This document shows, piece by piece, positions 29,568 through 53,647 of a stretch of DNA of 64,000 nt. The position numbers and the translations under genes are program-made. Location of the stretch: positions 1 to 64,000 of the forward strand of contig CANJNI010000006.1 of assembly GCA_947475995.1 (NCBI GenBank), given 5' to 3'. Origin of the DNA: Beijerinckiaceae bacterium. GTDB lineage: Bacteria > Pseudomonadota > Alphaproteobacteria > Rhizobiales > Beijerinckiaceae. The notes under the pieces are model-generated. The model saw only the letters and a program-made list of their open reading frames with translations, ran no database searches and was not told the DNA's origin. The stretch's first letter is position 1. Every line of letters begins with the position of its first letter.

Positions 29568-30632
29568 CTATTCGAACAGTCTCTGGTAGAGTTTCATTGT
29601 GTCGGGCTGCATGTTGGCGAGTTCTGTCTCGTCTACAAGAAATTTTTTCAAACCGTGCGTCTTCGGCAGGTAGGGCGCCATCTCGGGAGCAGGCGCAACG
29701 TCGGGATGCGTCGGATAGTAGCCGGCGTCCCGAATGATCGTTTGCGCCTCGCGGTCGAGCAGGAAGTCCATCAGCAGCATCGCTGCATGGGGGTGCGGGG
29801 CGGTCTTGGCCAGCATGAGGGGGCTGGCCGTGTAGGGCACGGGGTCCACCATGGCGACATTGACCGGCGCGCCTTTTTTGACGGCTTCGCCGACGTGGCT
29901 GAGGAACGGGTGAATCATCAGCTTGTGTTCGCCCGAGACCATCATGCTGAAAACGGTGCGAGAGCTTTCGGTGCGGCCGATGACCTTCTGCTTCGAGAGC
30001 TTTTCGAGCCAGTCCGCGGCCTTCTGGTCGCCCCATTGCATTCGCAGGAAGCTGATGAAGAACGGCATGCCGCTCGATCCTGCATTGACCACGATGTGGC
30101 CCTTCCATTTCGGATCGAGAAGATCGTCATATGATTTCGGCGCTTCTGCGGGTTTCACCTGATCGGTGTTGTAGGCCGCCAGGCCGAAATAATAGAAAAC
30201 AAAGGGCGCCCAGTAGCCATCCGGGTCCTTGTCCTCGGCCGGATAGACCTCGAGCGTCGGCGAATGGAATGACTGGATCGCGCCCGCCTTTTTCAGATCG
30301 ACGACCGCGCTCGACGTTATGAGATCGCTCTTGTTGTTGCGCGCCCGGAATTCCGCCAGAACGCGCTGCAACGCCTTGGTGCTGTCGGTGCGCACGCGGT
30401 TCACCTTGATGAACGGGTAGCGCTTTGTGAAGGCGTCGATCAGCGGCTTCGCATTGTCCTCGTTGAAGCTGCCGAGCCATAGGAGCTCGGCCTCGCGGCG
30501 CGCGCCCTCTTCCAGCGTCTTCTGCCGATCAGGCCCCTTCAGATTGGCCACTTGTTCGACCGTGAGGTCTGCGGCCTGCGCCGAGAAGGCAAATGTCAGC
30601 GAGAACAGGAAGGCGAATGCGGATTTCATCAT
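29568..30632 (-). CDS. Ferric-type ABC substrate-binding protein, tandem copy A
   Basis: The protein has 354 residues. The signal peptide is MMKSAFAFLFSLTFAFSAQA, cleaved before ADLTV. The mature protein matches type II extracellular solute-binding proteins (WLGSFNEDNAKPLIDAFTKR, then RVRTDSTKALQRVL, then DREAQTIIRDAGYYP near the C-terminus). It is a close duplicate of the next upstream gene: same length, same hinge motif DLLDPKW, and matching C-terminal ends TMKLYQRLFE and TALFQKLFE. Its ribosome site is weak, so translation may depend on the upstream gene 19 bp away. Confidence 0.87.
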   Translation of the reverse strand: MMKSAFAFLFSLTFAFSAQAADLTVEQVANLKGPDRQKTLEEGARREAELLWLGSFNEDNAKPLIDAFTKRYPFIKVNRVRTDSTKALQRVLAEFRARNNKSDLITSSAVVDLKKAGAIQSFHSPTLEVYPAEDKDPDGYWAPFVFYYFGLAAYNTDQVKPAEAPKSYDDLLDPKWKGHIVVNAGSSGMPFFISFLRMQWGDQKAADWLEKLSKQKVIGRTESSRTVFSMMVSGEHKLMIHPFLSHVGEAVKKGAPVNVAMVDPVPYTASPLMLAKTAPHPHAAMLLMDFLLDREAQTIIRDAGYYPTHPDVAPAPEMAPYLPKTHGLKKFLVDETELANMQPDTMKLYQRLFE

Positions 30633-30651
30633 TGCGGTTTTACCTGCCGGA

Positions 30652-31716
30652 CTATTCGAAAAGCTTCTGAAAGAGCGCTGTCGTTTCGGGCATCATCTGC
30701 CCGAGCTTCGTGTCGTCCACAATGTATTTGGAAATGCCGCGTTCCTTGGGAGAATAGGGCTTGAGGGCGTCGGACGGCGCGACATTCGGGTTGGCCGGGA
30801 AATATCCGGCGTCCCGCAACATGCCCTGCGCCTCGCGGTCGAGCAGGTAATCGATCAGCAGCATGGCCGCATGGGGGTGCGGAGCCGTCTTGGCCAGCAG
30901 CACAGGCGTGGAGCTGACCGGCGCCGGGTCGGCAATCAGCACCTCCAGAGGCGCGCCCTTGCGAACGAGTTCGCCCACATGGGTGAGAAAAGGATTGATC
31001 ATGATCTTGTGCTCGCCCGACGCCACCATGCCGAGCACGGTGCGAGCGCTTTCAGTGCGTCCGACAATCTTCTGCTTTGCCAGCTTCTCCAGATAGTCCC
31101 TGGCCTTCTGGTCCCCCCAGCTCATGCGCAGGAAGCTCGCAAAGAAAAGCGCACCGCTGGCGCTGCTGGCGAAAGTCATCTGTCCCCGCCATTTGGGGTC
31201 CAGCAGATCCTCATAGCTCTTTGGAGCGTCGGCAGCCTTCACCTGATTGGTATTGTAGGCGGCGAGGCCGTAATTGACGAAATAGAGCGGGGCCGCAAAG
31301 CCGTCCGGATCGCGGTCTTCCGGGGCGAACTGGTCTAGGACCGGCGAGCGGAAGGCCTGAACCGCGCCTGCTTCCCGCAGTTCTACCACGGCGTTCGAGG
31401 TGATCAGATCAGTGCGCGACTGGCGTGCGCGCAGTTCCGCCAGAACGCGCTGCAGCGCCTTGGTGCTGTCCGTGCGGACACGGTTGACCTTGATGAACGG
31501 ATAGCGCTTGCCAAATCCCTCCAGTATGGGCTTGGCGTTTTCCTCATTGAAGCTGCCGACCCAGAGAAGCTCGCCCTCCTTGCGGGCCCCCTCCTCAAGA
31601 CTCTTCAGGCGATCCGGACCCGTCAGTTTCGCGATTTCCTCAACGGTTGCCGAAGTGGCCGGAAAAGTGAGCGAAAGTGTAAGCGTCGCCCAAAGCGCAA
31701 TGCCCATGGCCTTCAT
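30652..31716 (-). CDS. Ferric-type ABC substrate-binding protein, tandem copy B
   Basis: The ATG at 31716 gives 354 residues with GAGGGG 10 nt upstream; an ATG at 31752 is possible but would spoil the leader. The signal peptide MKAMGIALWATLTLSLTFPA has likely cleavage after TSA. The motifs parallel copy A throughout: FNEENAKPILEGFGKR, RVRTDSTKALQRVL, DLLDPKWRG and DREAQGMLRDAGYFP. It is the first gene of the operon 31716 to 26659. Tandem duplication followed by divergence suggests that the two copies now bind different members of a compound class. Confidence 0.87.
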   Translation of the reverse strand: MKAMGIALWATLTLSLTFPATSATVEEIAKLTGPDRLKSLEEGARKEGELLWVGSFNEENAKPILEGFGKRYPFIKVNRVRTDSTKALQRVLAELRARQSRTDLITSNAVVELREAGAVQAFRSPVLDQFAPEDRDPDGFAAPLYFVNYGLAAYNTNQVKAADAPKSYEDLLDPKWRGQMTFASSASGALFFASFLRMSWGDQKARDYLEKLAKQKIVGRTESARTVLGMVASGEHKIMINPFLTHVGELVRKGAPLEVLIADPAPVSSTPVLLAKTAPHPHAAMLLIDYLLDREAQGMLRDAGYFPANPNVAPSDALKPYSPKERGISKYIVDDTKLGQMMPETTALFQKLFE

Positions 31717-32219
31717 CTGGTCGTTTCCCCTCGGGCGCTGCAGTGCCCACACGGGAGTTTAGAAGTTTTCGGGCGATTTCGAAAGATGGCGCCGGCATTT
31801 ATCCCGGCCGGCGGCTTTTTGGATTTTGCGCCGCAGCAATCTGTGTTGCAGGTGGAGGACGGGCCCCTCGCCAAGGCGCCGTCAATTCGTCCCTGGCGCC
31901 TCGGACGGCGCCAAAAAGGTGGAAAGGGCGAAGACATTACCCATCAAGAGTCAATCACGAACATACTCTTCGTTTCGCTACCCTATCCTGCTTTGCGTGC
32001 CGAGCCTGTGAAATTCAGCGTCTAGTTACCTCGCTGCACCGGGCGCGCTGCCGGATGAAAAGCCATTGCGTCGAGGCCCACTGCATCCCTGCTGTGACAA
32101 AAAGGCCGAACCGCGCCATTGACAATTCGGCCGTGCGCGCATTTCCTTACGAGATAAAGAATGACGAAAATCAGACGCTCGCCCGCATGGCAGAGCGCCG
32201 GGGAAACGCTGGAGGCTCG
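31717..32219. other. 503 bp intergenic region with an inverted repeat
   Basis: This region lies between divergent operons and should hold both promoters. It contains a perfect 9 bp inverted repeat, GGCGCCGTC at 31875-31883 and GACGGCGCC at 31904-31912, with a 20 bp spacer. A TTGACA hexamer near 32119 has no convincing minus-ten partner at 17 bp. An open plus-strand frame extends upstream from the gene at 32220, but it lacks a start signal and its peptide looks non-coding. No riboswitch consensus was recognised. Confidence 0.45.
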
Positions 32220-32750
32220 ATGTTGTGGAATTTTTTCCGCGAGTTCGAGCAGGGTGATTTTTCGAGCTGGGTGCGCGAAGGCAATTTCATCGCGGAGCCA
32301 TTCTCGACCTATTACACCTTGCTCGGTTTGCACTCGATCGGAATGGCGGCGATCGTCGGCGTCACCTGGATGCTCGGTTCCCGCATCTTCGGCTTCCAGA
32401 CCGGTATATCGCTCCGCAATGTAGGTGGCCTGTTTCGCCTTGCCTGGTGGGGTTTCTGGCTGAATCTTTTCAGCGGCATGGTCCTGCTGGCGGCCCAGCC
32501 CCGGCGCGAGATGATGACCGGCATGTTCTGGCTGAAGATCGCCGCCATCGTGCTCGCCGTCTGGGTCATTCGCGTCCTGCAGAAGGGCCTTTCGGAAATT
32601 CGCACCGTTCCGGACCCTCGCGGCGGAGGCGTCATCGAGGTCGTCCCACAATCCATTCGGCTGCAGGCCTTTGTGATCGTGGTCCTGTGGCTTGTCGCCA
32701 TCGTGGCGGGTCGGCTCATCGGCTATACCCAACCGCCGCCGCCAATGTGA
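32220..32750 (+). CDS. Four-helix membrane protein, DUF6644-like, first of a pair
   Basis: The ATG at 32220 has GGAGG 4 nt upstream, giving 176 residues. About four membrane helices are visible, with H38 in the first helix (LLGLHSIGM) and a second group of small and aromatic residues in FRLAWWGFWLNLFSG. A cytoplasmic loop of about 30 residues containing VPDPRGGG precedes the last helix. Together with the next gene it resembles paired DUF6644-type proteins, in which conserved intramembrane histidines suggest heme b binding. That ligand role is inference. It heads a string that continues with a cytochrome c and metal-transport genes. Confidence 0.6.
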   Translation: MLWNFFREFEQGDFSSWVREGNFIAEPFSTYYTLLGLHSIGMAAIVGVTWMLGSRIFGFQTGISLRNVGGLFRLAWWGFWLNLFSGMVLLAAQPRREMMTGMFWLKIAAIVLAVWVIRVLQKGLSEIRTVPDPRGGGVIEVVPQSIRLQAFVIVVLWLVAIVAGRLIGYTQPPPPM

Positions 32751-32798
32751 TCCTGAATCCGTCGCGCGAGTTACGAAAATAAATCAGGGAAGAAACGC

Positions 32799-33299
32799 AT
32801 GGAATTCGATCCGTCCGTGATCGCGTGGTTCAAGGCGGCGTGGCCCGGTCCGCTCGTGCGCACCAGCGGTTGGCTGTTTCCGTTCGGCGAGGTCATTCAC
32901 TTCATCGGCCTCTGCCTGCTGTTCGGCTCGCTCATCTTCATCGACCTGCGCCTCATGGGCTGGTTCAAGGAACTATCGGTCAAGGCAGTGCTGGCTCTCG
33001 TGCCCTACGCGATGATCGGCCTGACGATGAATATGTTGTCGGGCTGGCTTTTCTTCACGAGCGCGCCAGACACCTATCTCGAAAATCCGGCGTTTATCGT
33101 GAAGATGATTCTGGTGTTGCTCGCGACTGCGAATGCGGTTTTCTTCACGCTTTACGAACAACGGAAGGTCGCCATGATCGGGCCGGGTGAATCCGCACCC
33201 CGCATGGCGCAGATTCTTGCGGGCTCATCGCTCGGATTGTGGCTGTTGATCCTGTTGATCGGACGCTGGCTGCCGATCTTCACCGTCGGCACGAACTGA
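32799..33299 (+). CDS. Four-helix membrane protein, DUF6644-like, second of a pair
   Basis: This 166-residue protein has four predicted membrane helices. The first reads GEVIHFIGLCLLFGSLIFID followed by LRLMGW, the family's conserved histidine-containing helix and short positively charged turn. AGGGAAG precedes the ATG. With the gene at 32220 it could form a two-subunit cytochrome b-like module that passes electrons to the cytochrome c encoded next. No motif proves heme binding. Confidence 0.65.
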   Translation: MEFDPSVIAWFKAAWPGPLVRTSGWLFPFGEVIHFIGLCLLFGSLIFIDLRLMGWFKELSVKAVLALVPYAMIGLTMNMLSGWLFFTSAPDTYLENPAFIVKMILVLLATANAVFFTLYEQRKVAMIGPGESAPRMAQILAGSSLGLWLLILLIGRWLPIFTVGTN

Positions 33300-33308
33300 G
33301 CGTCGCCC

Positions 33309-33725
33309 ATGCCGGTGAAAATGCGACGCGCTGCTTTCCTGTTTCTGGTCGCACCCCTGTTTCCGCAGGCTTCTTTCGCACAGCAGCAGGCCGGCGATCT
33401 TGCCAACGGCGCTGATGTATTTGCGAAGCAGTGCGCGCCGTGCCACGGACTTGGGGTTGATTTCAAGACGGGATTGGCCGGGCCTCCACTCAACGGGATT
33501 ATCGGAAAGAAGTCGGCCCAGGCGCCGGGCTTCAACTACAGCCCCCAGATGCGCAGCGCGCGACTGACATGGGACGCGCCCATGCTGGCGCGCTATCTGA
33601 AATCACCCAAGGGCACAATTCCCGGCACGCGCATGCTGTTCAATGGTCTGGCAAGTCCAAAGGACATTGCAGACGTGATCGCACTGCTCGAAACCTACAA
33701 CGATAATGGCGCGCGCGCGCAATAG
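33309..33725 (+). CDS. Class I c-type cytochrome, periplasmic
   Basis: This 138-residue protein has the signal peptide MPVKMRRAAFLFLVAPLFPQ, ending near SFAQ. One heme site is seen, C42-A-P-C45-H46, and a likely distal ligand M109 in PGTRMLFNGL, so this is a class I mono-heme cytochrome of the c-550/c2 type. It begins 9 bp after the second membrane protein gene. Position suggests it accepts electrons from that pair or supplies them to a periplasmic partner. The start could also be the ATG four codons later. Confidence 0.88.
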   Translation: MPVKMRRAAFLFLVAPLFPQASFAQQQAGDLANGADVFAKQCAPCHGLGVDFKTGLAGPPLNGIIGKKSAQAPGFNYSPQMRSARLTWDAPMLARYLKSPKGTIPGTRMLFNGLASPKDIADVIALLETYNDNGARAQ

Positions 33726-33740
33726 AGGTCTGGAGGAGAC

Positions 33741-33983
33741 ATGGTCTTCGGGTTCGAACTCATCGGCGTCGGCGTATTGCTGATCGGCATATTCGCCTAC
33801 ATTACCCTCGTATTGCAGCCGAAATGGTATCCTGCCGAACTCGGCGGCAAGGTCGCAGCGGCATCTGGCGCACCGATACCGCATGCGGTGCTGGGCTGGA
33901 TGCTCGCCATTCTGTTTTTTGCCGGCGTATTTCTTGTAGCCGGGGGCAGCGTCGAGATCGGGATTCTTCGCAGCCGGGGCTGA
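33741..33983 (+). CDS. Small two-helix membrane protein
   Basis: This 80-residue protein starts 15 bp after the cytochrome c gene with GGAGGAG upstream of the ATG. It has two membrane helices (about 3-26 and 48-72) joined by a loop containing KWYPAELGGK. No family was recognised. Tight spacing makes it part of the same unit as the two histidine-bearing membrane proteins and the cytochrome, perhaps as a small stabilising subunit. Confidence 0.65.
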   Translation: MVFGFELIGVGVLLIGIFAYITLVLQPKWYPAELGGKVAAASGAPIPHAVLGWMLAILFFAGVFLVAGGSVEIGILRSRG

Positions 33984-34101
33984 GGTTGGCTGACTTAAAT
34001 CCTTGCCCCCCAATTGTGCAGCAAAGGAAGCCGTCAAAGCCCAAAGATCCTCGGCAGGCTTGCTAGAGCGTCGAAGGTGGGGCACATTCCGTTAGAATAA
34101 T

Positions 34102-34118
34102 GTCCATAAAATGTGGAC
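34102..34118. promoter_or_regulatory. Short inverted repeat before the metal-uptake genes
   Basis: GTCCA at 34102-34106 and TGGAC at 34114-34118 flank TAAAATG, 20 bp before the start at 34138. An AT-rich TAGAATAATG lies just upstream. It is a plausible operator for a metalloregulator controlling the genes to 39381, but no known Fur, Zur or Mur consensus is matched. Confidence 0.25.
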
Positions 34119-34137
34119 GCCGGGGAGGAGATGCTTC

Positions 34138-34467
34138 ATGGGGCTGCGAAGCGCCAGCATTTGCATTTGCATCGCGACCGCCATGGCGATTGGGCCTTCG
34201 GGGCTCGCCCATGCACATGATCCGATCCTGTCCTGCTTTGAGAATTCAAACGGATCAGTCACCTGCGAGGCCGGATACAGCGACGGGGCTTCCGCTTCCG
34301 GTCAATTGATTCGCGTAATGCTCGCAAACAAGCGCCTCGTGCTTGAAGACAAGTTTGCACGCAATAGCGCATTCACCTTCAAGCGGCCGGCGGGCGATTT
34401 CATCGTGGAATTTATAGGCGACGCAGCCCATCGGGCCACGTTCGACAGCGAAGATCTCGGCAAATAA
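34138..34467 (+). CDS. Small periplasmic protein, NikL-like
   Basis: The ATG at 34138 follows GGGAGGAG and gives 109 residues. The signal peptide ends near SGLAHA. The mature part begins HDPILSCFENSNGSV and ends with FKRPAGDFIVEFIGDAAHRA, a beta-rich layout like the small NikL-type proteins that sit beside DUF4198/NikK proteins in nickel and cobalt uptake operons. Histidines occur at the mature N-terminus and in AAHRA. The next gene is DUF4198, which supports this reading. The metal is not shown. It is 12 bp from the next gene. Confidence 0.55.
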   Translation: MGLRSASICICIATAMAIGPSGLAHAHDPILSCFENSNGSVTCEAGYSDGASASGQLIRVMLANKRLVLEDKFARNSAFTFKRPAGDFIVEFIGDAAHRATFDSEDLGK

Positions 34468-34479
34468 CCAGAGGCTAAC

Positions 34480-35328
34480 ATGGCATTGCGCATCTCGAAA
34501 TTTGCATTTGCACTCGGAATGGCCGGCGGTCTCTTTCTTTCGGCGTCAAACTCTTTCGCGCATTTCCAGATGCTGTTCCCCGGCGAGTCCCTGCGCATGG
34601 CCAACAGCGGCGCAATGGATTTGACTGCCATATTCACCCATGTGTTCAACGGCGGCCCATCCATGCAGATGGGCCAGCCGCGCGCGCTCTATCTGCTCAA
34701 ACAGCGCGGCGACGAAGGAAAGCCCGAGAAAGTCGATCTGCTGAAGCGGCTTGAGAAATTTGACTGGCTGGGCGACGGCAAGGAATCCGTAACCGCGTGG
34801 AAAGTTCCTATGGCGGCGAGCGAGCTGCGCTCGCTGGGCGACTATGTGTTCGTACTTGAACCCGAGCCCTTTCTGGAGGCTTCGGAGGACAAGTATATAC
34901 AGCAATTCACCAAGACGGTCGTGAATGTCGGCGGTATGCCGGGCAACTGGGAAAAGGTTGTCGGCTTGCCTGCAGAAATTCGCCCGCTCAACAAGCCCTA
35001 TGCGAACTGGACGGGCGGTGTATTCCGGGGCGTGGTTCTGTCACAGGGGAAGCCCGCGCCATTCGCGGAAGTCGAAGTGGAATTCGTCAATCGCAAGCCC
35101 GATCTTGCGGCTCGGGCATGGAGCGGCGATGCGCAGTTCAAGCCGGCGCATCCGGCGCTGGGCGCGATGAGCATTCGGGCCGATGCGCAGGGCAATATTG
35201 CCATTGGTCTGCCCAAGGCAGGTTGGTGGGGCATCGCGGCGCTCGATGTCGGTCCGACGAAGAAATTCAAGGGCAAGAAGCTGTCGCAAGACGCCGTCTT
35301 GTGGGTTCAGGTCAGCGATCCGAAGTGA
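34480..35328 (+). CDS. DUF4198 (NikK-like) periplasmic protein
   Basis: This 282-residue protein has a signal peptide ending at SNSFA, so that the mature protein starts near HFQMLFPGES. An N-terminal histidine directly after cleavage is typical of the DUF4198/NikK group, where it can coordinate metal. Two beta-sandwich parts are suggested: FTHVFNGGPSMQMG and the C-terminal FRGVVLSQGKPAPFAEVEVE, with ALGAMSIRADAQGNIAIGLP and GWWGI closing. Relatives accompany cobalt, nickel and other divalent cation importers. Here it stands before a ZnuABC-type system instead of an ECF transporter. Confidence 0.7.
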   Translation: MALRISKFAFALGMAGGLFLSASNSFAHFQMLFPGESLRMANSGAMDLTAIFTHVFNGGPSMQMGQPRALYLLKQRGDEGKPEKVDLLKRLEKFDWLGDGKESVTAWKVPMAASELRSLGDYVFVLEPEPFLEASEDKYIQQFTKTVVNVGGMPGNWEKVVGLPAEIRPLNKPYANWTGGVFRGVVLSQGKPAPFAEVEVEFVNRKPDLAARAWSGDAQFKPAHPALGAMSIRADAQGNIAIGLPKAGWWGIAALDVGPTKKFKGKKLSQDAVLWVQVSDPK

Positions 35329-35335
35329 GACAGTC

Positions 35336-35956
35336 TTGACGACCGTCACAATCGTTCCAGAGCAAAAGAAGCGAAGGCTGGAAACACTGGCCGTTTCGGC
35401 TGTGACGACGATTGTGGTGCTCGCGGCGGCACTCTGGGGAGCAACGCGCGATGCTAATGCACGTCTTCCACAATTGCTGGAGTGGCAAGTGAATTCGCTG
35501 ACCTCGTTGAACGAGGACGATCAGGCCATTCATTCGGCCCTCGTCGTAGCCGGGGAAGAAATCGGTTATCTCAATCAGGATTTCGGCGACTGGCCAAAAG
35601 CGCAAGAGCTGGATGAGCTTCTCATCGCTCCATTCTACAAGGATCAGTTCTGGAGCCAGCATGGGGAACTCAACTGGGATCTGATACGCGCCGCTGACTA
35701 CAACCATGGCGGCGATACGGGCTATCTCGGGAACGGCGGCAAGCAGACGGGCCAGTCGGCCTTTCTGCTTCTATTCCGCCACCGGCATGTGGGCGCGACC
35801 TATGCGAACCAGATCGATGTCTGGATACATCGCGATCCCGCCGCGAGCCGACCGACAGAAACCAAGGCGGAGTCGCTTGTGGCTGCGGGCTGGCGTCAGG
35901 TTGTCATGTACAGCGGCGCCGATGAACTCGAGCGCCTGAAGGGGAAAGCCCCATGA
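35336..35956 (+). CDS. Membrane-anchored DUF6162-like protein
   Basis: The TTG at 35336 gives 206 residues; the longer frame would run through the DUF4198 gene. A membrane anchor at about 17-38 (AVSAVTTIVVLAAALWGATR) puts the rest in the periplasm. It includes AGEEIGYLNQDFGDWP, a WSQHGELNWDLIRAADYNHGG stretch rich in W and H, and LFRHRHVGATYANQIDVWIHRDP. The histidines could bind metal. The resemblance to DUF6162 proteins found beside zinc/manganese ABC operons is from memory and is not certain. Its stop overlaps the start of the binding-protein gene by 4 bp. Confidence 0.6.
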   Translation: MTTVTIVPEQKKRRLETLAVSAVTTIVVLAAALWGATRDANARLPQLLEWQVNSLTSLNEDDQAIHSALVVAGEEIGYLNQDFGDWPKAQELDELLIAPFYKDQFWSQHGELNWDLIRAADYNHGGDTGYLGNGGKQTGQSAFLLLFRHRHVGATYANQIDVWIHRDPAASRPTETKAESLVAAGWRQVVMYSGADELERLKGKAP

Positions 35957-36852
35957 GTCGAAAGTTCGCGACTCTCCTTTCGCTGCTTGTGTGCGCTTTT
36001 TTCGGTCTTGCTGGTCAAGCTTTCGCGCAAAAGAAGCTTCGGGTCGGGGTGACGCTGCATCCCTATTACAGCTTTGTCGCCAATATTGTCGGCGATCGTA
36101 TGGAGATCGTGCCGGTCATTCCGGGCGAGGTGAATCCGCACGGCTACGAGCCCGGCCCCGACGACATCAAGCGGGCCTCCACACTCGACGCTCTCGTGGT
36201 GAATGGAATCGGCCACGACGAATTCATCTTCAAGATTGTCGAGGCGGCCGGCCGCAAGGACAACTTGCCGATGATCTACGCCAATGCGTCGGTCGCACTC
36301 ATTCCCATCGGGGGAGAGCGCAATGGGGAAAAGATCGTCAATCCGCACACGTTCGTCTCGACCAACGGCGCGATTCAGCAAGTATATGAAATCGCCCGGC
36401 GGCTCGGCGAGATCGATCCGCCGAATGCGACTTTCTACCGGAACAATGGCCGCGATTACGGGACGCGCATCCGCAGGCTCCGCGCCGATTTCATGCAGCG
36501 TATCGCCAGCCACGGTAAAGACTTCCGCGCTGCAACGATGCACGCGGGATATGACTATCTCTTTCAGGAATTCGGCTTGCGGGTGGCGGCGGTGATCGAG
36601 CCGCGCCACGGCGTTTCGCCCACCGCGCGGCAGCTGGCGCAAACGCTCGAAGACATCAGGGCTGCGAAGGTGCAGGTTTTGTTCGCCGAGCAATATTTTG
36701 GAGGCAATCTGGCCGAGACCGTTCGTCGCGAAACGGGCGTTCGGGTCTATACGCTTTCGCATATCACGGACGGACCCTTCACGGCGGACAAGTTCGAACG
36801 TGAGATGCGCGAGAATATCGACACGCTCGCTCGCGCGCTGGAAGAACAGTGA
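35953..36852 (+). CDS. ZnuA/TroA-family metal-binding protein with full ligand set
   Basis: This 299-residue protein has a leader ending near GQAFA. The cluster A-I fold is clear, with metal-ligand positions H63 (NPHGYEPGP), H132 (NPHTFVS) and H197 (TMHAGYDY). The fourth position is probably an acidic residue in the VLFAEQYFGG loop. The long histidine-rich loop typical of zinc-specific ZnuA is absent, which leaves Mn2+, Fe2+ or Zn2+ as candidates. It would deliver metal to the permease at 37526. Both flanking genes overlap it. Confidence 0.88.
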   Translation: MSRKFATLLSLLVCAFFGLAGQAFAQKKLRVGVTLHPYYSFVANIVGDRMEIVPVIPGEVNPHGYEPGPDDIKRASTLDALVVNGIGHDEFIFKIVEAAGRKDNLPMIYANASVALIPIGGERNGEKIVNPHTFVSTNGAIQQVYEIARRLGEIDPPNATFYRNNGRDYGTRIRRLRADFMQRIASHGKDFRAATMHAGYDYLFQEFGLRVAAVIEPRHGVSPTARQLAQTLEDIRAAKVQVLFAEQYFGGNLAETVRRETGVRVYTLSHITDGPFTADKFEREMRENIDTLARALEEQ

Positions 36853-37529
36853 TGGCGGGTCCGGGACTGCGATTCGACAAGGTCAGCGTGAGACTCGGAG
36901 GGACCGAGATCCTGTCGAACGTGAGTTTCGATGTCGCGCCATCGAGCATTCATTGCATCACCGGCCCGAATGGGGGCGGCAAGACAACCCTGATGCGCGC
37001 GCTTCTCGGGCAGGTTCCGTTCGACGGCACCATCACGATGGAAGGCCCGGCGAAGCCGGTCATCGGCTATGCGCCGCAGTCGCTCGACATCGATCGCAAT
37101 CTCCCCTTCACCGTGGAAGATGTGCTGGCGGTGATGTTGCAGCGACGCCCCGCCTTCATGGGTCGCTCCGCAAGCCTGAAGCGGCATCAGGACGCATTGC
37201 TTGCGCGGCTGGGTCTGGGCGCCAAGGCGCGGCGTTTGTTCGGCCATCTCTCCGGCGGCGAGAGACAGCGTCTGCTTTTCGCGCAGGCGCTGTTGCCCGC
37301 GCCGGACGTTCTGCTCATCGACGAAGCGACGGCGAATATGGATGAAGATGTCGTTCGCCTCATTGAAGAGATGGTGCGGGAACTTTCCGCATCAGGCGTA
37401 ACGGTCCTGTGGATCAATCATGATGCCGCACAGGTCAATCGCATGGCCGACCGGGTGACCGAGATCGCCCGGAAGGTTCTGTCGGACAGGGCGGCGAATG
37501 CTTCCAGGGTGTTGGAGCCGAGCGCATGA
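36852..37529 (+). CDS. ZnuC-like metal ABC transporter ATPase
   Basis: The ATG at 36852 overlaps the previous TGA by one base, giving 225 residues; a GTG one codon upstream is the alternative. Walker A is GPNGGGKT (38-45), the signature is LSGGERQR and Walker B is VLLIDEA; the H-loop is INHDAAQ. Family members drive uptake of Zn, Mn or Fe. An unusual third glycine replaces the more common serine or alanine of the Walker A loop, though this occurs in relatives. It is translationally coupled to its neighbours. Confidence 0.9.
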   Translation: MAGPGLRFDKVSVRLGGTEILSNVSFDVAPSSIHCITGPNGGGKTTLMRALLGQVPFDGTITMEGPAKPVIGYAPQSLDIDRNLPFTVEDVLAVMLQRRPAFMGRSASLKRHQDALLARLGLGAKARRLFGHLSGGERQRLLFAQALLPAPDVLLIDEATANMDEDVVRLIEEMVRELSASGVTVLWINHDAAQVNRMADRVTEIARKVLSDRAANASRVLEPSA

Positions 37530-38428
37530 CGGACCTTTACGGGTTCATCCGGTCGCTTTTCGAAGGCATGGCCAATGCGGGTCTGCTGCCCAATGTGTTT
37601 CATTTCCAGTTCGTCGGGAATGCGGTCATTGCCGCGCTTGTGATAGGGCCGCTTCTGGGAATGCTGGGCTCGATGGTTGTCATCAAACGCATGGCGTTCT
37701 TCAGCCAGGCAATCGGCAATGCGGCGCTGACAGGCGTCAGTATCGGGGTTCTGATAGGAGAGTCGAACAGCTCGACTTACGTATCGACCTTTGCGTTCTG
37801 TTTTGTTTTCGGCCTTGTGCTGCGATATGCGCAGCAACGTACAAGTCTTTCGAACGATGTGCTGATCGGCGTGTTTCTCTCCATTTCGCTCGCGATCGGC
37901 GCATCGCTGCTGCTTTTCGTTTCGGCGCGCACAAACACACATGTGCTGGAAAACATCCTGTTCGGTTCCATTCTGACCGTAGGCCCGCGGGACCTCGACA
38001 TCCTGCTCGGGGTGGCGCTGGTGGCTTTCGTCTTCGGAGGCGTCTTCTACAACAGGATCATTCTGGCGAGTTTCAGCCCCAGTCTTGCTGAAGCGCGTGG
38101 CGTGCCGGTGCGCGCAGTCGAATATGTGTTTGTCATTCTGATCACGCTGGTGACGGTCGCCTGCGTGAAGATCGTCGGGGCTGTTCTGGTGGAGGCCCTG
38201 CTGGTGATTCCTGCCGCTGCGTCCCGCAATATCAGCAGGTCATTGCGCGGTTTTGTCGGATGGGGCGTCGTGTTCGCGACGCTCTCCTGCCTCGTGGGGA
38301 TCGTGGCGCCGATGCACTACAACATTCCGGTTCCCTCGGGCGGCGCCATCATCCTGGTCGCAGCGGCGCTTTTTCTGGCGACGACATTGCTGCGCAATGT
38401 GCATCCCGCGTTCAGGAGCGCCGCATGA
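37526..38428 (+). CDS. ZnuB-like metal ABC transporter permease
   Basis: This 300-residue protein has eight or nine hydrophobic helices. The family's MVVIKRMAFFSQAIGNAALTG stretch near 51-71 and the later GAVLVEALLVIPAAASRNIS match ABC-3 (ZnuB/MntB/TroC) permeases. It overlaps the ATPase stop by 4 bp and the next gene's start by 4 bp. With 35953 and 36852 it makes a complete cation importer. Confidence 0.9.
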   Translation: MTDLYGFIRSLFEGMANAGLLPNVFHFQFVGNAVIAALVIGPLLGMLGSMVVIKRMAFFSQAIGNAALTGVSIGVLIGESNSSTYVSTFAFCFVFGLVLRYAQQRTSLSNDVLIGVFLSISLAIGASLLLFVSARTNTHVLENILFGSILTVGPRDLDILLGVALVAFVFGGVFYNRIILASFSPSLAEARGVPVRAVEYVFVILITLVTVACVKIVGAVLVEALLVIPAAASRNISRSLRGFVGWGVVFATLSCLVGIVAPMHYNIPVPSGGAIILVAAALFLATTLLRNVHPAFRSAA

Positions 38429-39381
38429 TCCGGTTCGTCGCGGTCATTGTCCTTTTGATGTGCGGCCAAGCAGGAGCCGCCGAAGTGCGTGTTGCTGCTG
38501 CCATCGCGCCGGTCTGGTCGATTGTCGATGCTCTGGCTCAGGGGACGTCCATCCGGGCCATTGCGACGCCCGAGAAGCTGCCCGGCATGGGCCAGCTCGA
38601 ACGCGCAATGACGCGTCAATCTGCGGCCATCGGGGCGCGTCTCGCGCAGGTCGATGCAGTCGTCACTCTCTCAAGCGTCTGGGCGGAAGATCCGCTCTAT
38701 CGGGAAGCCCGGGCAGCCAACCTGCGCGTTGTCCAGATTGATGCGGGACGGGCATTGGGCAAGGGCGGCGGTAGCGTCATGTTGATGAATGCTCCCGCCA
38801 ATCAGGTGCCGTGGCGAAAGGCCGCGTCGGCGACAGGCGTTTCGCCGTGGGTCTGGTTCAGCAGCGGAAATGTCGTCCGCATGGCTGAGATCATCGCTGC
38901 CGATCTGGTTCGGCTCGCCCCTGATGACGCCGCAACGATCAACGCAAATCTATCGGGGCTCCAGCGGGAGGCTCTCGCACTACGTGCGGAGTACGAACAG
39001 AAATTTCTGGAAGATGCGGATCAGCCGATCTTCGTTTTGACGGATCGGTTTGCCTATCTTTTTCAGGAGTTTGGCATCTTTGCCGACGGCGCATTGCTGG
39101 ATGACGATATCCGCTGGACGGATCAGGATCTCTCCGGTGTCGAGGAAATGTTGAGGCAGCGCGACATAAAGGTTGCGGTGCATCATTGGCGTCCGGATGA
39201 CCGGATCGTCGAAGCGATCAGGAGGGGCGGCGCCGAACTGCTCATTCTCGATGACGGAGAACATTCAGACGGAAGCGCCGCCGCGCCGCCTCAGCCAAAT
39301 GCGTGGCGTTTGATTTTAAAGACCAATCTGGATGCGCTGCATGCGGCGTTGCAGACAGCAAAGGCGAAGCAAGAACGATAG
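38425..39381 (+). CDS. ZnuA/TroA-like protein lacking the metal-ligand histidines
   Basis: The ATG at 38425 overlaps the permease stop, giving 318 residues with a leader ending GQAGA. The fold is recognisable as cluster A-I: VRVAAAIAPVWSIVDALAQG at the N-terminus and DRFAYLFQEFGIFADG mirroring HAGYDYLFQEFGL of the partner at 35953. The first ligand region reads ATPEKLPGMGQLER with no histidine, and the third ligand histidine is replaced by aspartate (LTDRFAY). It may bind a metal chelate, act as an accessory or regulatory subunit, or use acidic ligands. It is the last gene of the coupled string. Confidence 0.75.
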   Translation: MIRFVAVIVLLMCGQAGAAEVRVAAAIAPVWSIVDALAQGTSIRAIATPEKLPGMGQLERAMTRQSAAIGARLAQVDAVVTLSSVWAEDPLYREARAANLRVVQIDAGRALGKGGGSVMLMNAPANQVPWRKAASATGVSPWVWFSSGNVVRMAEIIAADLVRLAPDDAATINANLSGLQREALALRAEYEQKFLEDADQPIFVLTDRFAYLFQEFGIFADGALLDDDIRWTDQDLSGVEEMLRQRDIKVAVHHWRPDDRIVEAIRRGGAELLILDDGEHSDGSAAAPPQPNAWRLILKTNLDALHAALQTAKAKQER

Positions 39382-39443
39382 ACGTTGCGAGCCAGCAGGA
39401 ACTTGTCTAGCTTGTATCTATAACAATGTATGGGGAGGTGCTG

Positions 39444-41654
39444 ATGAATTTGCTGAAAATCCGTCTTGCGTCGGGAGCTGCGCTTGCGCTGCTTTGCGCC
39501 GCGGGTTCTGCCTATGGGCAGTCTGCTCTCAAGATCGAGGTGCTTTCGTCGCGTCCTGAACTGGTCAGCGGCGGCGATGCGCTGGTGAAGATCACCGGCG
39601 CCGATGCAGCACCGAACGTCACCGTCGGCGGTGCAGATGTGTCCGGCGTTTTCAAGGGAAGCGCCGGCGCCGGATGGGTCGGGGTGGTTGCAGGCCTCAA
39701 GGATGGCGCGAACCAGCTCGTCGCAAAGGCCGGCGGCAAGGAAGGCAATCTGACCCTTGTCAATCACCCGATCAATGGAGCGCTCTTCGCCGGGCCGCAG
39801 CAGGTTCCGTTCGTCTGTGAAAACGAAACTCACAAGCTCGCATCCGCCAAGGATGACAGCTGCGCTGCGCCCTCCAAGGTCGAGTATTTCTATCGCAACA
39901 AGGGCGGCGAATGGAAAGCCTTCAACCCGACTGCCGCGCGTCCCAATGACATCGGCACGACCAAGACCACGGAAGGCAAGGAAGTTCCGCTGATTGTCAG
40001 GCAGGAGAAGGGCGTCATCAACCGCTCTGCCTATCTGATCAATATCCTGCACGATCCGGCGGCCGGTCCTCTGCCGACCCCGGCCGCCAAGTCGGACGCG
40101 TCGGGCTGGAACGGCAAGGCGATTTTCAGCTTCGGCGGCGGCGTGCAGTCGAACTATCACATGGGCCGCAACCTCGGCGGCATGACCGGAACCGACAACA
40201 AGTTCTTCATCGAAGACATGGGCGGCGGCTTGTCCGACACGTTCGTGATGCGCGGCTATGCGGTGCTGGCCGGCTCGCTCAACGTGATGGGCAGCAACAA
40301 CGACACAGTGAAGTCCGCTGAAACGCTTGCGAAGATCAAGGAGTATTTCTCCGAGCAGTTCGGCGCTCCGGCCTTCACGATCGGTCACGGCGCTTCGGGC
40401 GGTTCGATGCAGCAGCATCTGATCGGCAACGCCTATCCGGGACTGCTCGACGGCATCATGCCCGCGCGTTCCTACCCGGACGTGATGACCTTCCTGCAGC
40501 CGCTCTACGATTGCGAGCTCGTCGCGAAGGCGATGGAAGATCCCAAATGGACGCGCGCCCAGAAGGAAGCTGTTTCCGGCAAGTACTGGGGCTATTGCGT
40601 CAGTAACGGCACACGCTATCCGAACGCACGCCCCAACTGGTGCGACGCCGTGGTTGCGGACGCGGTCGCGAACGACCCGGCGCTGAAGCAGAAGGGGATT
40701 CGCTGCACGTTCCAGGACAATCTGGTCAACATCTTCGGCAAGGACCCGAAGAATGGCTTTGCCCGCAATCCGTTCGACAATGTCGGCGTTCAGTACGGCC
40801 TCAAGGCCCTGAACGAAGGCAAGATCAACATGGATCAGTTCATCGAGATCAACCAGAAGATCGGTGGCCTTGATGTCGACGGCAAGGTCGTTGCAGCTCG
40901 TCAGGTCGGAGATCCTCTCGCCCTGCGCCGCGCCTACCAGACCGGTCAGGTCAATCTCGGCGATGGCGGTCTTGCGTCCATTCCGATCATCGACATCCGC
41001 TCCTATGTGGATGGCGATCCTGCCAAAGTAGGTGATCCGAATATCGACGTTCATGACGGCTATCACAGCGCGGTCATGCGCGCGCGCCTGCTCAAGTACA
41101 ACGGCAATGCGAACAATCACGCCATGCTGACCGTGGCGAGCCTTGGCCGCGTTCAGCTCGATACGCGTGGCGCAGCCTCGACCTATGGCACGCCGCTGAC
41201 CCGGATTTCGGCCGAAGGGCTCGACATCATGGATAAATGGCTGACCGCCATCGCCAGGGACACCAGCGACAAGCCGCAGGCCCAGAAGGTTGCGGCTGCT
41301 CGCCCGGCTGAACTTGTGGATGCATGCTATCCTACCAAGTTCGGCGCCCTCGTCGGTGAAATCGATAAGGTCACCGACAAGGCGCAGTGCGACAAGGTGT
41401 TCCCGTTTGCGGCCGATGCGCGTCTGGCAGCAGGCGGTCCTGCCACCAACGACGTCTTCAAGTGTCAGCTCAAGCCTGTTGCGGCGTCCGATTACAAGAC
41501 GGCGCCGTCGGCTGATCAGCTTGCCAAACTGAAGCAGGCCTTCCCTGAAGGCGTCTGCGACTATAGCAAGCCGGGCGTCGAGCAGGTGAAGATTGCCGGC
41601 ACATGGCATGTGTTCAAGGGCGACGGCGAGTTCGTGACGCTCAGCCAGCGCTGA
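39444..41654 (+). CDS. Secreted DUF6351-like putative hydrolase
   Basis: The ATG at 39444 has GGGGAGG 5 nt upstream, giving 736 residues. The leader ends near GSAYG. An N-terminal beta-rich domain (about 25-115) precedes a large alpha/beta part with a serine-hydrolase elbow GHGASGG (S318) and later candidates D and H in DVHDGYH. Several cysteines in the mature part suggest disulfides. The protein resembles DUF6351 members, which are distantly like 3-hydroxybutyrate oligomer hydrolases. The natural substrate is unknown. A strong terminator follows, so it may form its own transcript. Confidence 0.7.
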   Translation: MNLLKIRLASGAALALLCAAGSAYGQSALKIEVLSSRPELVSGGDALVKITGADAAPNVTVGGADVSGVFKGSAGAGWVGVVAGLKDGANQLVAKAGGKEGNLTLVNHPINGALFAGPQQVPFVCENETHKLASAKDDSCAAPSKVEYFYRNKGGEWKAFNPTAARPNDIGTTKTTEGKEVPLIVRQEKGVINRSAYLINILHDPAAGPLPTPAAKSDASGWNGKAIFSFGGGVQSNYHMGRNLGGMTGTDNKFFIEDMGGGLSDTFVMRGYAVLAGSLNVMGSNNDTVKSAETLAKIKEYFSEQFGAPAFTIGHGASGGSMQQHLIGNAYPGLLDGIMPARSYPDVMTFLQPLYDCELVAKAMEDPKWTRAQKEAVSGKYWGYCVSNGTRYPNARPNWCDAVVADAVANDPALKQKGIRCTFQDNLVNIFGKDPKNGFARNPFDNVGVQYGLKALNEGKINMDQFIEINQKIGGLDVDGKVVAARQVGDPLALRRAYQTGQVNLGDGGLASIPIIDIRSYVDGDPAKVGDPNIDVHDGYHSAVMRARLLKYNGNANNHAMLTVASLGRVQLDTRGAASTYGTPLTRISAEGLDIMDKWLTAIARDTSDKPQAQKVAAARPAELVDACYPTKFGALVGEIDKVTDKAQCDKVFPFAADARLAAGGPATNDVFKCQLKPVAASDYKTAPSADQLAKLKQAFPEGVCDYSKPGVEQVKIAGTWHVFKGDGEFVTLSQR

Positions 41655-41675
41655 CAACTGGCTCACGCATGATCG

Positions 41676-41709
41676 CGCCGCCGTCCTCGAAAGGACGGCG
41701 GCGTTTTTT
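41676..41709 (+). terminator. Rho-independent terminator after the DUF6351-like gene
   Basis: CGCCGCCGTCC (41676-41686) pairs perfectly with GGACGGCGGCG (41693-41703) across a TCGAAA loop. TTTTTT follows at 41704-41709. Confidence 0.95.
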
Positions 41710-41764
41710 ATCTCAATCTTCGGCGGCTTCCATCGATTGCAAGCCGCCACGAATGGAGATGCGG

Positions 41765-42274
41765 ATGTTCAAGAGGCGGTTTGGACACGCTTTTCTGGCA
41801 ACTGTTGTTGCCATCGCTTCGTTGACCGGCGCGCCTCGTGCTCAGGAGACGGGTCTGACCGGGGCCGACAAGGCAGCCGACATCGTACAGGCCCGCCAAT
41901 TGTTGATGGATGCCGCCGAAGAGCACATCATGTTCATTGATGCGGTCAGTGCGGGTAAGGACCTCGCATTAAGCGACATGAAGTCGCGGGCCTACCAGCT
42001 CAACATCCTGTTGCTGGCATTTCCGCATTTGTTTCCGCCGCAGACAACGCCCGCTGCCGGTGACCGGGACGGAGCCTTCCAGACCAATGCGACTGACGCG
42101 GTGTGGAAGGACTTTCCTGCCTTTTATCAGGCAGCTCAGGATTTTGCTGCCGTGGCGCTTGATGCAAGCCAGGCGAAGGACATAGGGGCGTTCCGTGTTT
42201 ACGGCGCCCAACTAAGGGCAGGCTGCGATTCCTGCCATCAGGCCTATATGACGCCTGTCGAACAGCCAAAATGA
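41765..42274 (+). CDS. Cytochrome c' -like periplasmic protein
   Basis: This 169-residue protein starts at an ATG 6 nt after GGAG; in-frame ATGs at 41753 and 41759 are alternatives. The leader ends near APRAQ. The mature part is helical with a single heme-binding site, C154-D-S-C157-H158, very close to the C-terminus (HQAYMTPVEQPK). A C-terminal CxxCH on a four-helix bundle is the hallmark of cytochrome c' (class II). Those proteins bind NO and have a five-coordinate heme. It lies between the DUF6351-like gene, from which a terminator separates it, and other exported proteins. Confidence 0.82.
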   Translation: MFKRRFGHAFLATVVAIASLTGAPRAQETGLTGADKAADIVQARQLLMDAAEEHIMFIDAVSAGKDLALSDMKSRAYQLNILLLAFPHLFPPQTTPAAGDRDGAFQTNATDAVWKDFPAFYQAAQDFAAVALDASQAKDIGAFRVYGAQLRAGCDSCHQAYMTPVEQPK

Positions 42275-42297
42275 CATAAGTGCATCATGCATCGCTA

Positions 42298-42325
42298 TTG
42301 ACCGCTCGCGCATGAGTGCTAATCT
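42298..42325 (+). promoter_or_regulatory. Sigma-70-like promoter candidate
   Basis: TTGACC at 42298-42303 and TAATCT at 42320-42325 are separated by 16 bp, placing a start about 115 bp before the gene at 42446. It is a sequence match only. Confidence 0.45.
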
Positions 42326-42445
42326 CGACTCACAATAAATACTTGCCGTCACTGAAGTGATCGTAGCAATGAATCTCGCCGGCGATTGCCGACGCGATGG
42401 GGGATGAAACAGCGCAAATCGGCGTTCAGCCGGTCGGGAGGACTA

Positions 42446-43399
42446 ATGTCTGCAAGCTTTGTCAAATCAGCACTGCGCCTGCTCGCTGCGGGCGCCGCCG
42501 TCGCTGCGGCCACATTTGTTGGAGCCGGATCGTCCTATGCGCAGGGTCCGTGCCCTCAGTGCGGTCCTCAGGTTCAGATCAAGGATGTCGACAAGGCGAT
42601 AGGCGAGGCCGCGCAAAGCATGGGCCTCGTGCGCGCCATCCTCCAGACCATCGGCCAGATGAACAATTACGAATATGTCGCCAATGGCTCATGGGTGGAT
42701 CTTGAGGCTGCGACGCTCGGACAGCCGCAACCGGTCAGCAAGATCGTATGGAATGTCCACCAGCAACTCTGGGCGTCGCGGATGCAGGTGTCCGGCGTAG
42801 CGGCGCATCGCGTCGTGAAGGGCAATCGCGCCTGGGACGAGACCTGGTTTGAAGAAAAGGGCAAGGCCGGGACGGTCAAGAAAATCCGAACCAATCCTGC
42901 CGACGGCGCCGCCAAACTGCGCGCCCAACTCGTCTGGCTGGAACCCCATGCGTTCCTCAGCCATGTGGCGTTCGCGGCCAACAAGAAGTGCCTGCTGACT
43001 GAAGCCAAGGCCTGCGAAACCAAATGGTCGAAGGGCGAGGAGAACGGTCTCACCACATTGTCGGTCGAAATCAATGGCGTGACCTACAAGGGGACGCTGG
43101 ACGCCAAGAAGCGGATTGGGTCTATCGAGGCGAAGCTCGATTTGCCGAGCGGAGCAGGCAAGACCGTCGTGGCGAAATACACGCAGTGGCGCGCCGGCGA
43201 AACGGACACGAATGATCCGAAGGATCGCGCCGCACAGGGTCCGAAGGCGCTCGACAAGTTCCACAACGGCCTTTACTGGCCCGAAAAGGTGGTCTGGGAA
43301 CTCGACGGCCAGAAGGTGCTGGATCTGACCGTGACCGAAGGCTGGGGCAATCCGTACACCATTTATCCGGAGCCCGAACTCCTCGCGAAGGCGCAGTGA
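42446..43399 (+). CDS. Conserved exported protein of unknown function
   Basis: The ATG at 42446 follows GGGAGG, giving 317 residues. The signal peptide is MSASFVKSALRLLAAGAAVA with likely cleavage before QGPCPQC. The mature N-terminus carries a CPQC pair, and more cysteines occur in KKCLLTEAKACETKW. Much of the protein is tryptophan-rich and beta-like, for example WNVHQQLWASRMQV, WDETWFEEKG and YWPEKVVWELDG. I do not recognise a family. It is followed by two more exported proteins in one transcript ending at 44832. Confidence 0.75.
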   Translation: MSASFVKSALRLLAAGAAVAAATFVGAGSSYAQGPCPQCGPQVQIKDVDKAIGEAAQSMGLVRAILQTIGQMNNYEYVANGSWVDLEAATLGQPQPVSKIVWNVHQQLWASRMQVSGVAAHRVVKGNRAWDETWFEEKGKAGTVKKIRTNPADGAAKLRAQLVWLEPHAFLSHVAFAANKKCLLTEAKACETKWSKGEENGLTTLSVEINGVTYKGTLDAKKRIGSIEAKLDLPSGAGKTVVAKYTQWRAGETDTNDPKDRAAQGPKALDKFHNGLYWPEKVVWELDGQKVLDLTVTEGWGNPYTIYPEPELLAKAQ

Positions 43400-43448
43400 T
43401 TTACAATTTGTGGAAGCCGGAAAGGGCTTCCTTTCAAGGAGACCGAAA

Positions 43449-43865
43449 ATGAAAAAGATCTTTGTTTTTGGCGCGATGCTGGCGACGACCCTGGCTTTTG
43501 CTTCGGGTTCCCAGGCGCATCACGCCGTGCAGGCTCAGTTCGATGTGTCCAAGAACGTCATCTTCAAGGGCAAGCTGATCAAGGTCGACTGGCAGAATCC
43601 TCATGCCTGGTTCCACTTTGAAGTGACCAAGCCGGATGGCTCCGTCGAGACCTGGTCGACCGAAACCGTCGGTCCCAACGGACTGCGTCGGCTTGGCCTG
43701 AGCGACCGTCGCCTGTTCCAGATCGGCGAGACCTATACGGTGGACATTTGTCCTGATCGCTCGGGCGCGAAACTTGGTTTCACCAACGCCTTTACCTTCC
43801 CGGACGGCAAGTTCATCAAGGTGGGCTTCCCGGAAAACCCGAATGGCGAGATCCCCAACAAGTAA
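43449..43865 (+). CDS. Exported DUF6152-like protein
   Basis: AAGGAG sits 7 nt before the ATG, giving 138 residues. The leader ends at SGSQAHH, so the mature protein starts with a double histidine. The short beta-barrel-like domain reads VIFKGKLIKVDWQNPHAWFH, then VETWSTETVGPNGLRRLG and GETYTVDICPDRSGAK. The KVDWxNPH motif is typical of DUF6152 proteins, which often neighbour other exported proteins like the next gene. A metal or ligand role for the histidines is possible. Function unknown. Confidence 0.75.
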   Translation: MKKIFVFGAMLATTLAFASGSQAHHAVQAQFDVSKNVIFKGKLIKVDWQNPHAWFHFEVTKPDGSVETWSTETVGPNGLRRLGLSDRRLFQIGETYTVDICPDRSGAKLGFTNAFTFPDGKFIKVGFPENPNGEIPNK

Positions 43866-44875: not shown

Positions 44876-45031
44876 ATGGAAGCAGGCATCATGCTCATCT
44901 ATCAGGGACTGGCGCTGCTGGTCGCTGTTATGATGGCCGTCGTGGTCTGGCGTGAAAGCGACTGGCGCACCCAGTTTTTCGCAGCCCTGATTTTCATTCC
45001 ATTTGTGCTGCGCGCGGTGGGGGTCAAGTAA
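44876..45031 (+). CDS. Small single-pass or two-helix membrane protein
   Basis: The ATG at 44876 has AAAGG 6 nt upstream, giving 51 residues; an ATG at 44891 is an alternative. Two short hydrophobic stretches (about 5-24 and 33-48) flank WRESDWRTQ. Its TAA overlaps the next ATG by one base (TAATG), so the two are coupled. A role in anchoring or exporting the next protein is possible. No family recognised. Confidence 0.6.
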   Translation: MEAGIMLIYQGLALLVAVMMAVVVWRESDWRTQFFAALIFIPFVLRAVGVK

Positions 45032-46161: not shown

Positions 46162-46175
46162 TCCTTCTTTTCCCG

Positions 46176-46217
46176 AACAAAAGGGCCGCTACTCCCGGGA
46201 GTAGCGGCCCTTTTGTT
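46176..46217. terminator. Perfect 42 nt palindrome, bidirectional terminator
   Basis: Every base from 46176 to 46196 pairs with 46217 down to 46197, a 21 bp perfect inverted repeat with no built-in loop, centred on CCCGGG. The arms end in AACAAAAGGG and CCCTTTTGTT, so each direction leaves a T-rich tail. It lies between convergent genes ending at 46161 and 46245 and most likely terminates both. Confidence 0.93.
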
Positions 46218-46244
46218 TTGTCGTGACGCCTTGGGGCTCCCGGA

Positions 46245-47522: not shown

Positions 47523-47549
47523 TCAATCCCCCCGAAAATGCGGCCCTTT

Positions 47550-53558: not shown

Positions 53559-53647
53559 GCATGAGTTTTAACCAGCCATGACGGCGACTGCAACGAACTC
53601 CATGTCGCGAGGCCCACAAGGGCGCGTACGCCGGGAGATTTCTCTGC

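Follow-up and report, generated by a model that had tools for sequence, protein, structure and literature searches.

Why should genes for a pair of membrane proteins and a cytochrome c stand in front of what reads, by its family names, as a zinc importer? The question is posed by a stretch of 64,000 nucleotides (the window) from the 4.1 Mb genome assembly of a Beijerinckiaceae bacterium, in which a string of genes, here called A to K, runs from position 32220 to 39381. All the genes that an earlier note on this DNA had listed were present there, on the plus strand and with short gaps between them. The note had seen in them a candidate undescribed uptake system, in which a metal changes its oxidation state in the periplasm before it is taken in by an ATP-binding cassette (ABC) importer. 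We find that the uptake part is not undescribed but of a known kind, because its transporter resembles FpvC, FpvD, FpvE and FpvF of the pyoverdine pathway, while the electron module is new to systems of the Fpv type. As a whole, the locus may encode an Fpv-type reductive importer of ferrous iron that works with a different electron module, a reading to which we give a probability slightly above one half (about 0.52).

We compared genes A to O of the window by tblastn with 12 loci around DUF6162 genes. Three of these (L022, L023 and L029) were taken as Pseudomonas fpv loci, and their order fpvJ-K-C-D-E-F was matched by E-G-H-I-J-K in the window, where a DUF4198 gene is inserted. We name them fpv operons because the published order, in the available excerpt of PMC6954188, is fpvGHJKCDEF; the same excerpt describes reduction as the means by which FpvGHJKCDEF of Pseudomonas aeruginosa sets pyoverdine-bound iron free, and FpvC as able to bind the ferrous iron. 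Identity to the three loci was 48–50% for H, 48–51% for I, 52% for J and 31–33% for K, and reached 29–33% for E (E-values of 4e-11 or better) and 25–28% for G (1.5e-7 or better). By position and tblastn, E (34138–34467), a small protein with a hydrophobic N-terminus, is the counterpart of FpvJ; its start was set at 34138, and a longer ATG frame opens at 34111. It is followed by the inserted DUF4198 protein F (34480–35328) and by the DUF6162 protein G (35336–35956, TTG start), which has one hydrophobic N-terminal stretch and corresponds to FpvK. Both families had been named in the earlier note, and both proteins exceeded their Pfam cut-offs. H (35953–36852) and K (38425–39381), the latter a divergent second binding protein and the FpvF counterpart, both belong to the ZnuA family (PF01297); between them lie the ABC ATPase I (36849–37529, GTG start; FpvD counterpart) and the ABC-3 permease J (37526–38428; FpvE counterpart), as assigned by Pfam and NCBIfam. 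Overlaps of 4 nt at each junction from G to K couple the binding protein, ATPase and permease as the note had described, but not as a ZnuA-ZnuC-ZnuB set, H being FpvC-like. Searches of F against PDB sequences gave a best E-value of 0.028, which we take as chance, and those of E matched artificial repeat proteins at E-values as low as 1.3e-5, though no stretch passed, which we take as an effect of composition.

The identity of H was decided by its putative metal site. Its closest solved relatives were 6ru4, 6r3z, 6r44, 6r5s and 6r6k, which we take to be FpvC structures, and the counterpart of H in L022 matched these chains at E 7e-157. Chain 6r6k carries Gly at six places where two other sequences carry His, and it was from this chain that we defined a set of six His, presumably the metal ligands. 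In H these are His 63, 88, 132, 197, 219 and 270, all of them kept in the window. The set is complete in 34 of 35 loci (L018/L030 and L019/L031 being the same contigs), and the exception, L044, ends at a contig edge with five His visible. A control ZnuA encoded elsewhere in the genome has only three of the six, with a PF01297 match (2e-93) better than that of H. Since the site is complete in H and half as large in ZnuA, we conclude from the alignments that H is a binding protein of the FpvC type and not of the ZnuA type. The same test led us to set aside a zinc importer, as H has neither the ZnuA-type site nor its family score; in NCBIfam, the zinc and manganese equivalog scores also lay under their cut-offs.

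What stands in the position of the reductase differs between loci. Among the window and loci L018–L100, FpvG was found by tblastn (1e-3) only in the three fpv loci, where an FpvG-like protein adjoins the importer on its upstream side (PepSY_TM, as tested on L022). L024–L028 carry an E-(G)-H-I-J-K block, G of L026 having been missed by tblastn yet found as Pfam DUF6162, and in L024–L027, which we call vibrio-like and for which this position was viewed, it is held by PepSY_TM_like_2, DUF2271 and DUF4198 proteins (families tested on L024). By inspection, a TonB receptor appears to lie near these genes in L024 and L026, and TonB energiser genes in L025 and L027. In all 16 named Pseudomonas loci (16 of the 23 loci in a scan of genome contigs), and also in L021, the gene directly 5′ of importer gene G belongs to a DUF6644-type membrane pair. 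The stop codon of the second membrane gene and the candidate start codon of G share the sequence TGATG, with a one-base overlap, in each of the 16, so that translation in Pseudomonas probably treats the pair and the importer as a single unit. A maximum-likelihood tree of H (23 rows, namely 22 chosen importers and ZnuA, whose row was too long to root the tree) placed the PepSY-type importers apart from the DUF6644-type ones with a support of 96/99. The window's contig has no PepSY match; the two PepSY_TM proteins of this genome are encoded on contigs C8 and C1, not on C6.

The window carries such a pair in A (32220–32750) and B (32799–33299). The two are paralogs and, as the note had read them, four-helix membrane proteins, each with four long helices in a confidently predicted model (predicted local distance difference test, pLDDT, of 86 for A and 93 for B). 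Against DUF6644 (PF20349, cut-off 27), A scored 14.6 bits (E 0.039) and B, which is also DUF2214-like, 26.6 bits (E 7.6e-6), whereas the Pseudomonas partners reached 82.7 and 37.5 bits; neither A nor B matched a PepSY or b561 family in Pfam. Alignments of 17 A-type and 20 B-type sequences revealed one invariant His per subunit (H38 in A, H34 in B), with an invariant Lys and Arg also kept in each. These two His share one column in a joint alignment, where 54 of 55 rows have His and the remaining row, L094:5649, appears on inspection to be a wrong-frame match. The charges of the loops would place the invariant His near the periplasmic face. Downstream follow C (33309–33725), a cytochrome c with a CxxCH motif (Pfam and NCBIfam) that its relatives would assign to class I, and D (33741–33983), a small protein with two hydrophobic stretches and no match in Pfam or NCBIfam. 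The cytochrome is an optional component: three close modules (window, L084, L087) read A-B-C-D, and the other two (L085, L086) read A-B-D.

Judged from genome content, the pair and the importer belong together, and their association is real, conserved and above chance. The DUF6162 marker (profile A1) occurs in four of 387 genomes from this family, and D as well as A homologs of at least 55% identity are present in these same four; another 51 family genomes hold only distant relatives of A (at most 34% identity, E 2e-8 or worse). When 61 relatives were searched for both A and B, matches of at least 55% were again confined to the four. The arrangement of the two parts is co-directional in the window and divergent in G035, where it was read across two contig ends that share an exact 149-base overlap, and in G010, like G035 a genome of the same genus, an A-B-D module lies on the importer contig about 7 kb past the importer cluster. 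A single operon from A to K is therefore not what the relatives have, and a linkage that is rearranged yet retained argues for joint function. We also examined 11 importer genomes (G000, G035, G010, G005, G344 and those of L032, L033, L040, L044, L045 and L050), with a single representative of the 16 named Pseudomonas among them. A DUF6644-type pair was found in every one, with Pfam DUF6644 over its cut-off in nine, and in G361 the second member was seen by tblastn only. As background, any DUF6644 match occurred in 22 of 299 phylum genomes, and in none of the seven phylum genomes in which every DUF6162 locus is of the PepSY or fpv kind. The pair is linked to the importer in G000, G035, G010, G344 and G362, and ambiguously so in G005 (short contig). 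The joining of pair and importer that the note had proposed is thus upheld by the shared 4 of 387 genomes and by the stop/start overlap in Pseudomonas. The note had also held that its idea would fail if the membrane and metal genes were separate in most genomes; the pair was present in 11 of 11, and in 5 of them pair and importer are on different contigs (G357–G361, which are draft assemblies, so that a link across contig ends is possible).

The gaps between the genes of the window measure 48 nt (A-B), 9 nt (B-C), 15 nt (C-D), 12 nt (E-F) and 7 nt (F-G), and the largest, D-E, is 154 nt, or 127 nt if E begins at its longer start. The sites listed include neither a plus-strand terminator-like one in the D-E gap nor a sigma-70-like one within 31700–43500. 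K is followed after 44 nt by L (39426–41654, plus strand), a DUF6351 protein of a tannase-like family, and the transcription unit may extend through L to a long, terminator-like plus-strand hairpin of 13 pairs with a T tail directly 3′ of it (41675–41704). The number of terminator-like sites was itself near chance, since 17 were found and 12.1 in shuffled sequence.

On these grounds, we propose the following mechanism. A ferric complex would arrive in the periplasm, where a membrane heterodimer of A and B, aided by D and, where present, by the cytochrome c, would give electrons to it. H, with its six His, would capture the freed Fe2+, and the ATPase and permease I and J would import it. K would hold the ligand or pass on the complex, in the manner of FpvF, and the pieces would be docked together by E and G, the counterparts of FpvJ and FpvK, and by the DUF4198 protein F. 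Iron as the metal, the pair as the reductase, its heterodimeric state and the direction of electron flow are all parts that we infer. We assign iron because of the homology to FpvC and because DUF4198, DUF2271 and PepSY genes form iron-linked clusters, which are under Fur control in Caulobacter and respond to iron in Alteromonas according to the accessible portions of PMC3751524, PMC12004947 and PMC7190382. Of the three metals suggested at first (iron, copper or manganese), iron fits best. Reduction in the periplasm followed by ABC import finds a precedent in the known member of this importer type, which, in the excerpt of PMC6954188, acts after periplasmic iron reduction; a heme in the pair found no structural backing. 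Cytochromes c of class I are usually of high potential, which would suit weakly held ferric iron (citrate, polyphenol) better than strong siderophores. A weak complex as the source would also fit the hydrolase and porin-like neighbours described below and the missing TonB receptor.

Several findings weigh against this proposal. Foldseek searches of the A and B models against the PDB returned no match below E 1, so that heme is not demonstrated for the pair; the cytochromes in these lists (cytochrome c oxidase subunits, CcmC and a designed heme bundle) were at noise level only, and a profile of B against PDB sequences gave an uncharacterised protein as its best match (E 0.25). A diheme reductase requires more than one His per subunit. 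The cytochrome c is missing from two of the five close modules. PepSY_TM proteins are present elsewhere in 10 of the 11 importer genomes, two of them in this genome, and A and B are for this reason not the sole candidate reductase. As for the linkage, the four family genomes may share a single acquisition, the divergent order in G035 allows separate regulation, and the five genomes with the pair on another contig, named above, count here as well. G000, G035 and G005 also have DUF6644-type pairs at sites away from importers. In G005, moreover, A to D sit on a separate short contig and are directly followed by homologs (46% identity; L102:1721-3318) of the LolD/FtsX-type ABC genes found elsewhere in the window; a second ABC system linked to metals may thus be served by the membrane module too. 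No PF00593 TonB receptor was matched on the window's contig, the matches of this genome being on C41, C2 and C39. Simple operator scans gave no sign of iron control: no Fur-box-like site turned up before the 16 Pseudomonas clusters (best 10–12 of 19 positions, which equals background), and IRO and ICE patterns had no match in the seven gaps scanned. A Fur scan of the gaps of the window and L084 likewise gave nothing, nor did a Zur consensus scan before the 16 Pseudomonas clusters.

A bolder version of the proposal, which we put forward tentatively and regard as more doubtful than probable, is that the DUF6644 pairs represent a class of metal reductases in the membrane that has not been described before. 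Each of the two paralogous four-helix subunits would contribute one His from the same helix position to a single shared heme at the periplasmic face, and the pairs would feed Fpv-type importers, which would then make up a superfamily built of modules, the electron module being exchangeable among three kinds or more.

The pair could instead handle the metal itself. On this explanation, which we consider unlikely, A and B are CopD-like, and metal moves through them and the ABC importer with no reduction. We keep it open because a Pseudomonas partner, P1 of L033, comes near CopD (PF05425; E 9.6e-7, 29.6 bits, cut-off 32.1) and also matches DUF2269. One invariant His with a Lys and an Arg per subunit, and models without structural match to a cytochrome, would suit such a role, and the PepSY_TM proteins encoded elsewhere could supply reduction. 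However, the pair precedes the same importer where its relatives have PepSY-type proteins, and three of the five close modules include a cytochrome c gene.

Transport of a divalent metal other than iron (zinc, manganese or nickel/cobalt), as the names ZnuA, NikL and DUF4198 would have it, is in our estimate decidedly unlikely. AztC and AztA were the best NCBIfam matches of H and I, both under their cut-offs. The LolD/FtsX-like genes that follow A to D in G005 have their window homologs on the minus strand at 50909–53567, where a LolD-type ATPase and an FtsX-type permease adjoin a presumably DUF3299-like frame; this set resembles PA4064-PA4066, which we take to be zinc-responsive. E is NikL-like, as first reported, with an NCBIfam score under the cut-off. 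A NikKLMQO-type nickel/cobalt importer of the energy-coupling factor class does not match, as the permease here is of the ABC-3 family with ZnuA-family binding proteins, and the NikL name of E is no pointer to nickel because the FpvJ counterpart in L022 is equally NikL-like (28.2 and 28.3 bits). Against this explanation as a whole stands H, with its six FpvC-type His, whereas the separate ZnuA of the genome has three. One published observation points away from iron: the DUF4198 gene of Caulobacter mentioned above, CC3061, also drops to 0.41 in a zur mutant, according to the available part of PMC4176598.

The neighbourhood extends past K in a partly conserved form. L, M (41738–42274), a cytochrome c′ (PF01322), N (42446–43399), which has no Pfam or NCBIfam family, and O (43446–43865), a DUF6152 protein, all on the plus strand, follow K in the window and in the two same-genus loci L018 and L019. 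Directly 3′ of O, a homolog of a protein here called X (43899–44756, plus strand; 26–30% identity) is encoded, and an X-like protein also comes after O in L030 and L031. In the Pseudomonas loci, a porin-like gene on the minus strand (Alginate_exp, under its cut-off), DUF6152, X and an Abhydrolase_10 protein lie upstream of the membrane pair; the porin-like gene was present in 16 of 16 and in L021, and DUF6152 was seen in three of the loci only at a looser E-value. Several Pseudomonas loci (L033–L052) have a repeated CATAAGAAC-like sequence in the leader of the DUF6152 gene. We take it, by resemblance, as a candidate catabolite-repression (Crc) motif, and such a motif would point to control by carbon and not by iron. 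DUF6152 and X also lie upstream of E-F-G in L040, L044 and L045, from uncultured proteobacteria, where HupE/UreJ_2 (tested on L040) and a conserved familyless protein form another accessory set for this type of importer.

Given the hydrolases beside the clusters of both lineages (DUF6351 in the window, Abhydrolase_10 in Pseudomonas), the porin-like gene and the lack of a TonB receptor match on the window's contig, the cluster could serve an organic compound as food, such as a metal-chelating ester or polyphenol, with hydrolase, porin and DUF6152 as its core and metal import secondary; we think this very improbable. In L032 and L050 the importer block is present while these genes are absent from the stretches covered, and the importer core is by its family matches a metal transporter.

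Some further observations concern the surroundings of these genes. Just upstream of A, two similar SBP_bac_6 solute-binding proteins are encoded side by side on the minus strand (29568–31752). At 45031–50175, weakly AstE/AspA-like, DctM-like membrane, CapC and Mur-ligase-like proteins suggest a cluster of the poly-gamma-glutamate type; in G010 (L086), two of these genes separate the importer from the A-B-D module. The importer-free DUF6644-type pairs of G005, G000 and G035 (L088, L089 and L094) indicate that the pair family has other settings too; each of these loci carries a gene 24–27% related to window 4984–6006, which is presumably dioxygenase-like.

If our reading is right, a pyoverdine-specific pathway becomes a wider family of reduction-coupled importers with a constant core and a variable electron module. 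It would offer a first testable role for DUF6644 and DUF6162, neither of which was mentioned in the literature searched, and a way to study how iron in weak organic complexes might be obtained by bacteria that have no siderophore receptor at the locus. In the same literature, DUF4198 was not found in papers matching FpvC, FpvD or FpvJ.

How does this system compare with those already known? The proposed role of A and B resembles that of FoxB, FsrB and FrcB, membrane proteins that give Fe2+ in the periplasm, of which FrcB and FsrB are alphaproteobacterial (accessible portions of PMC8891985 and PMC10760861). These are single-protein reductases, FoxB being di-heme and FrcB diheme by the title of its paper, whereas A and B form a pair with no PepSY or b561 match. 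The zinc importers ZnuABC and AztABCD share the families PF01297, ABC_tran and ABC-3 with the window, which differs from them by its six-His site and its sub-cut-off zinc and manganese equivalog scores. The PepSY-DUF2271-DUF4198 clusters of Caulobacter and Alteromonas (PMC3751524, PMC12004947 and PMC7190382, as far as their accessible text goes) have DUF4198 in common with the window, but their electron module is of the PepSY type with DUF2271, and in the part of the Caulobacter cluster table that was available, ApbE and a flavoprotein come next and not an FpvC-type importer; it is in L024–L027 that genes of this type are followed by the importer block also seen in L028. Closest of all is FpvGHJKCDEF (excerpt of PMC6954188). 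The window lacks FpvG at the locus (FpvH was not searched for by itself) and a TonB receptor match on its contig, yet its counterparts of J, K, C, D, E and F run in an identical order and all six His are kept, with a DUF4198 gene inserted and with a DUF6644-like pair, a small membrane protein and a cytochrome c instead of FpvG.

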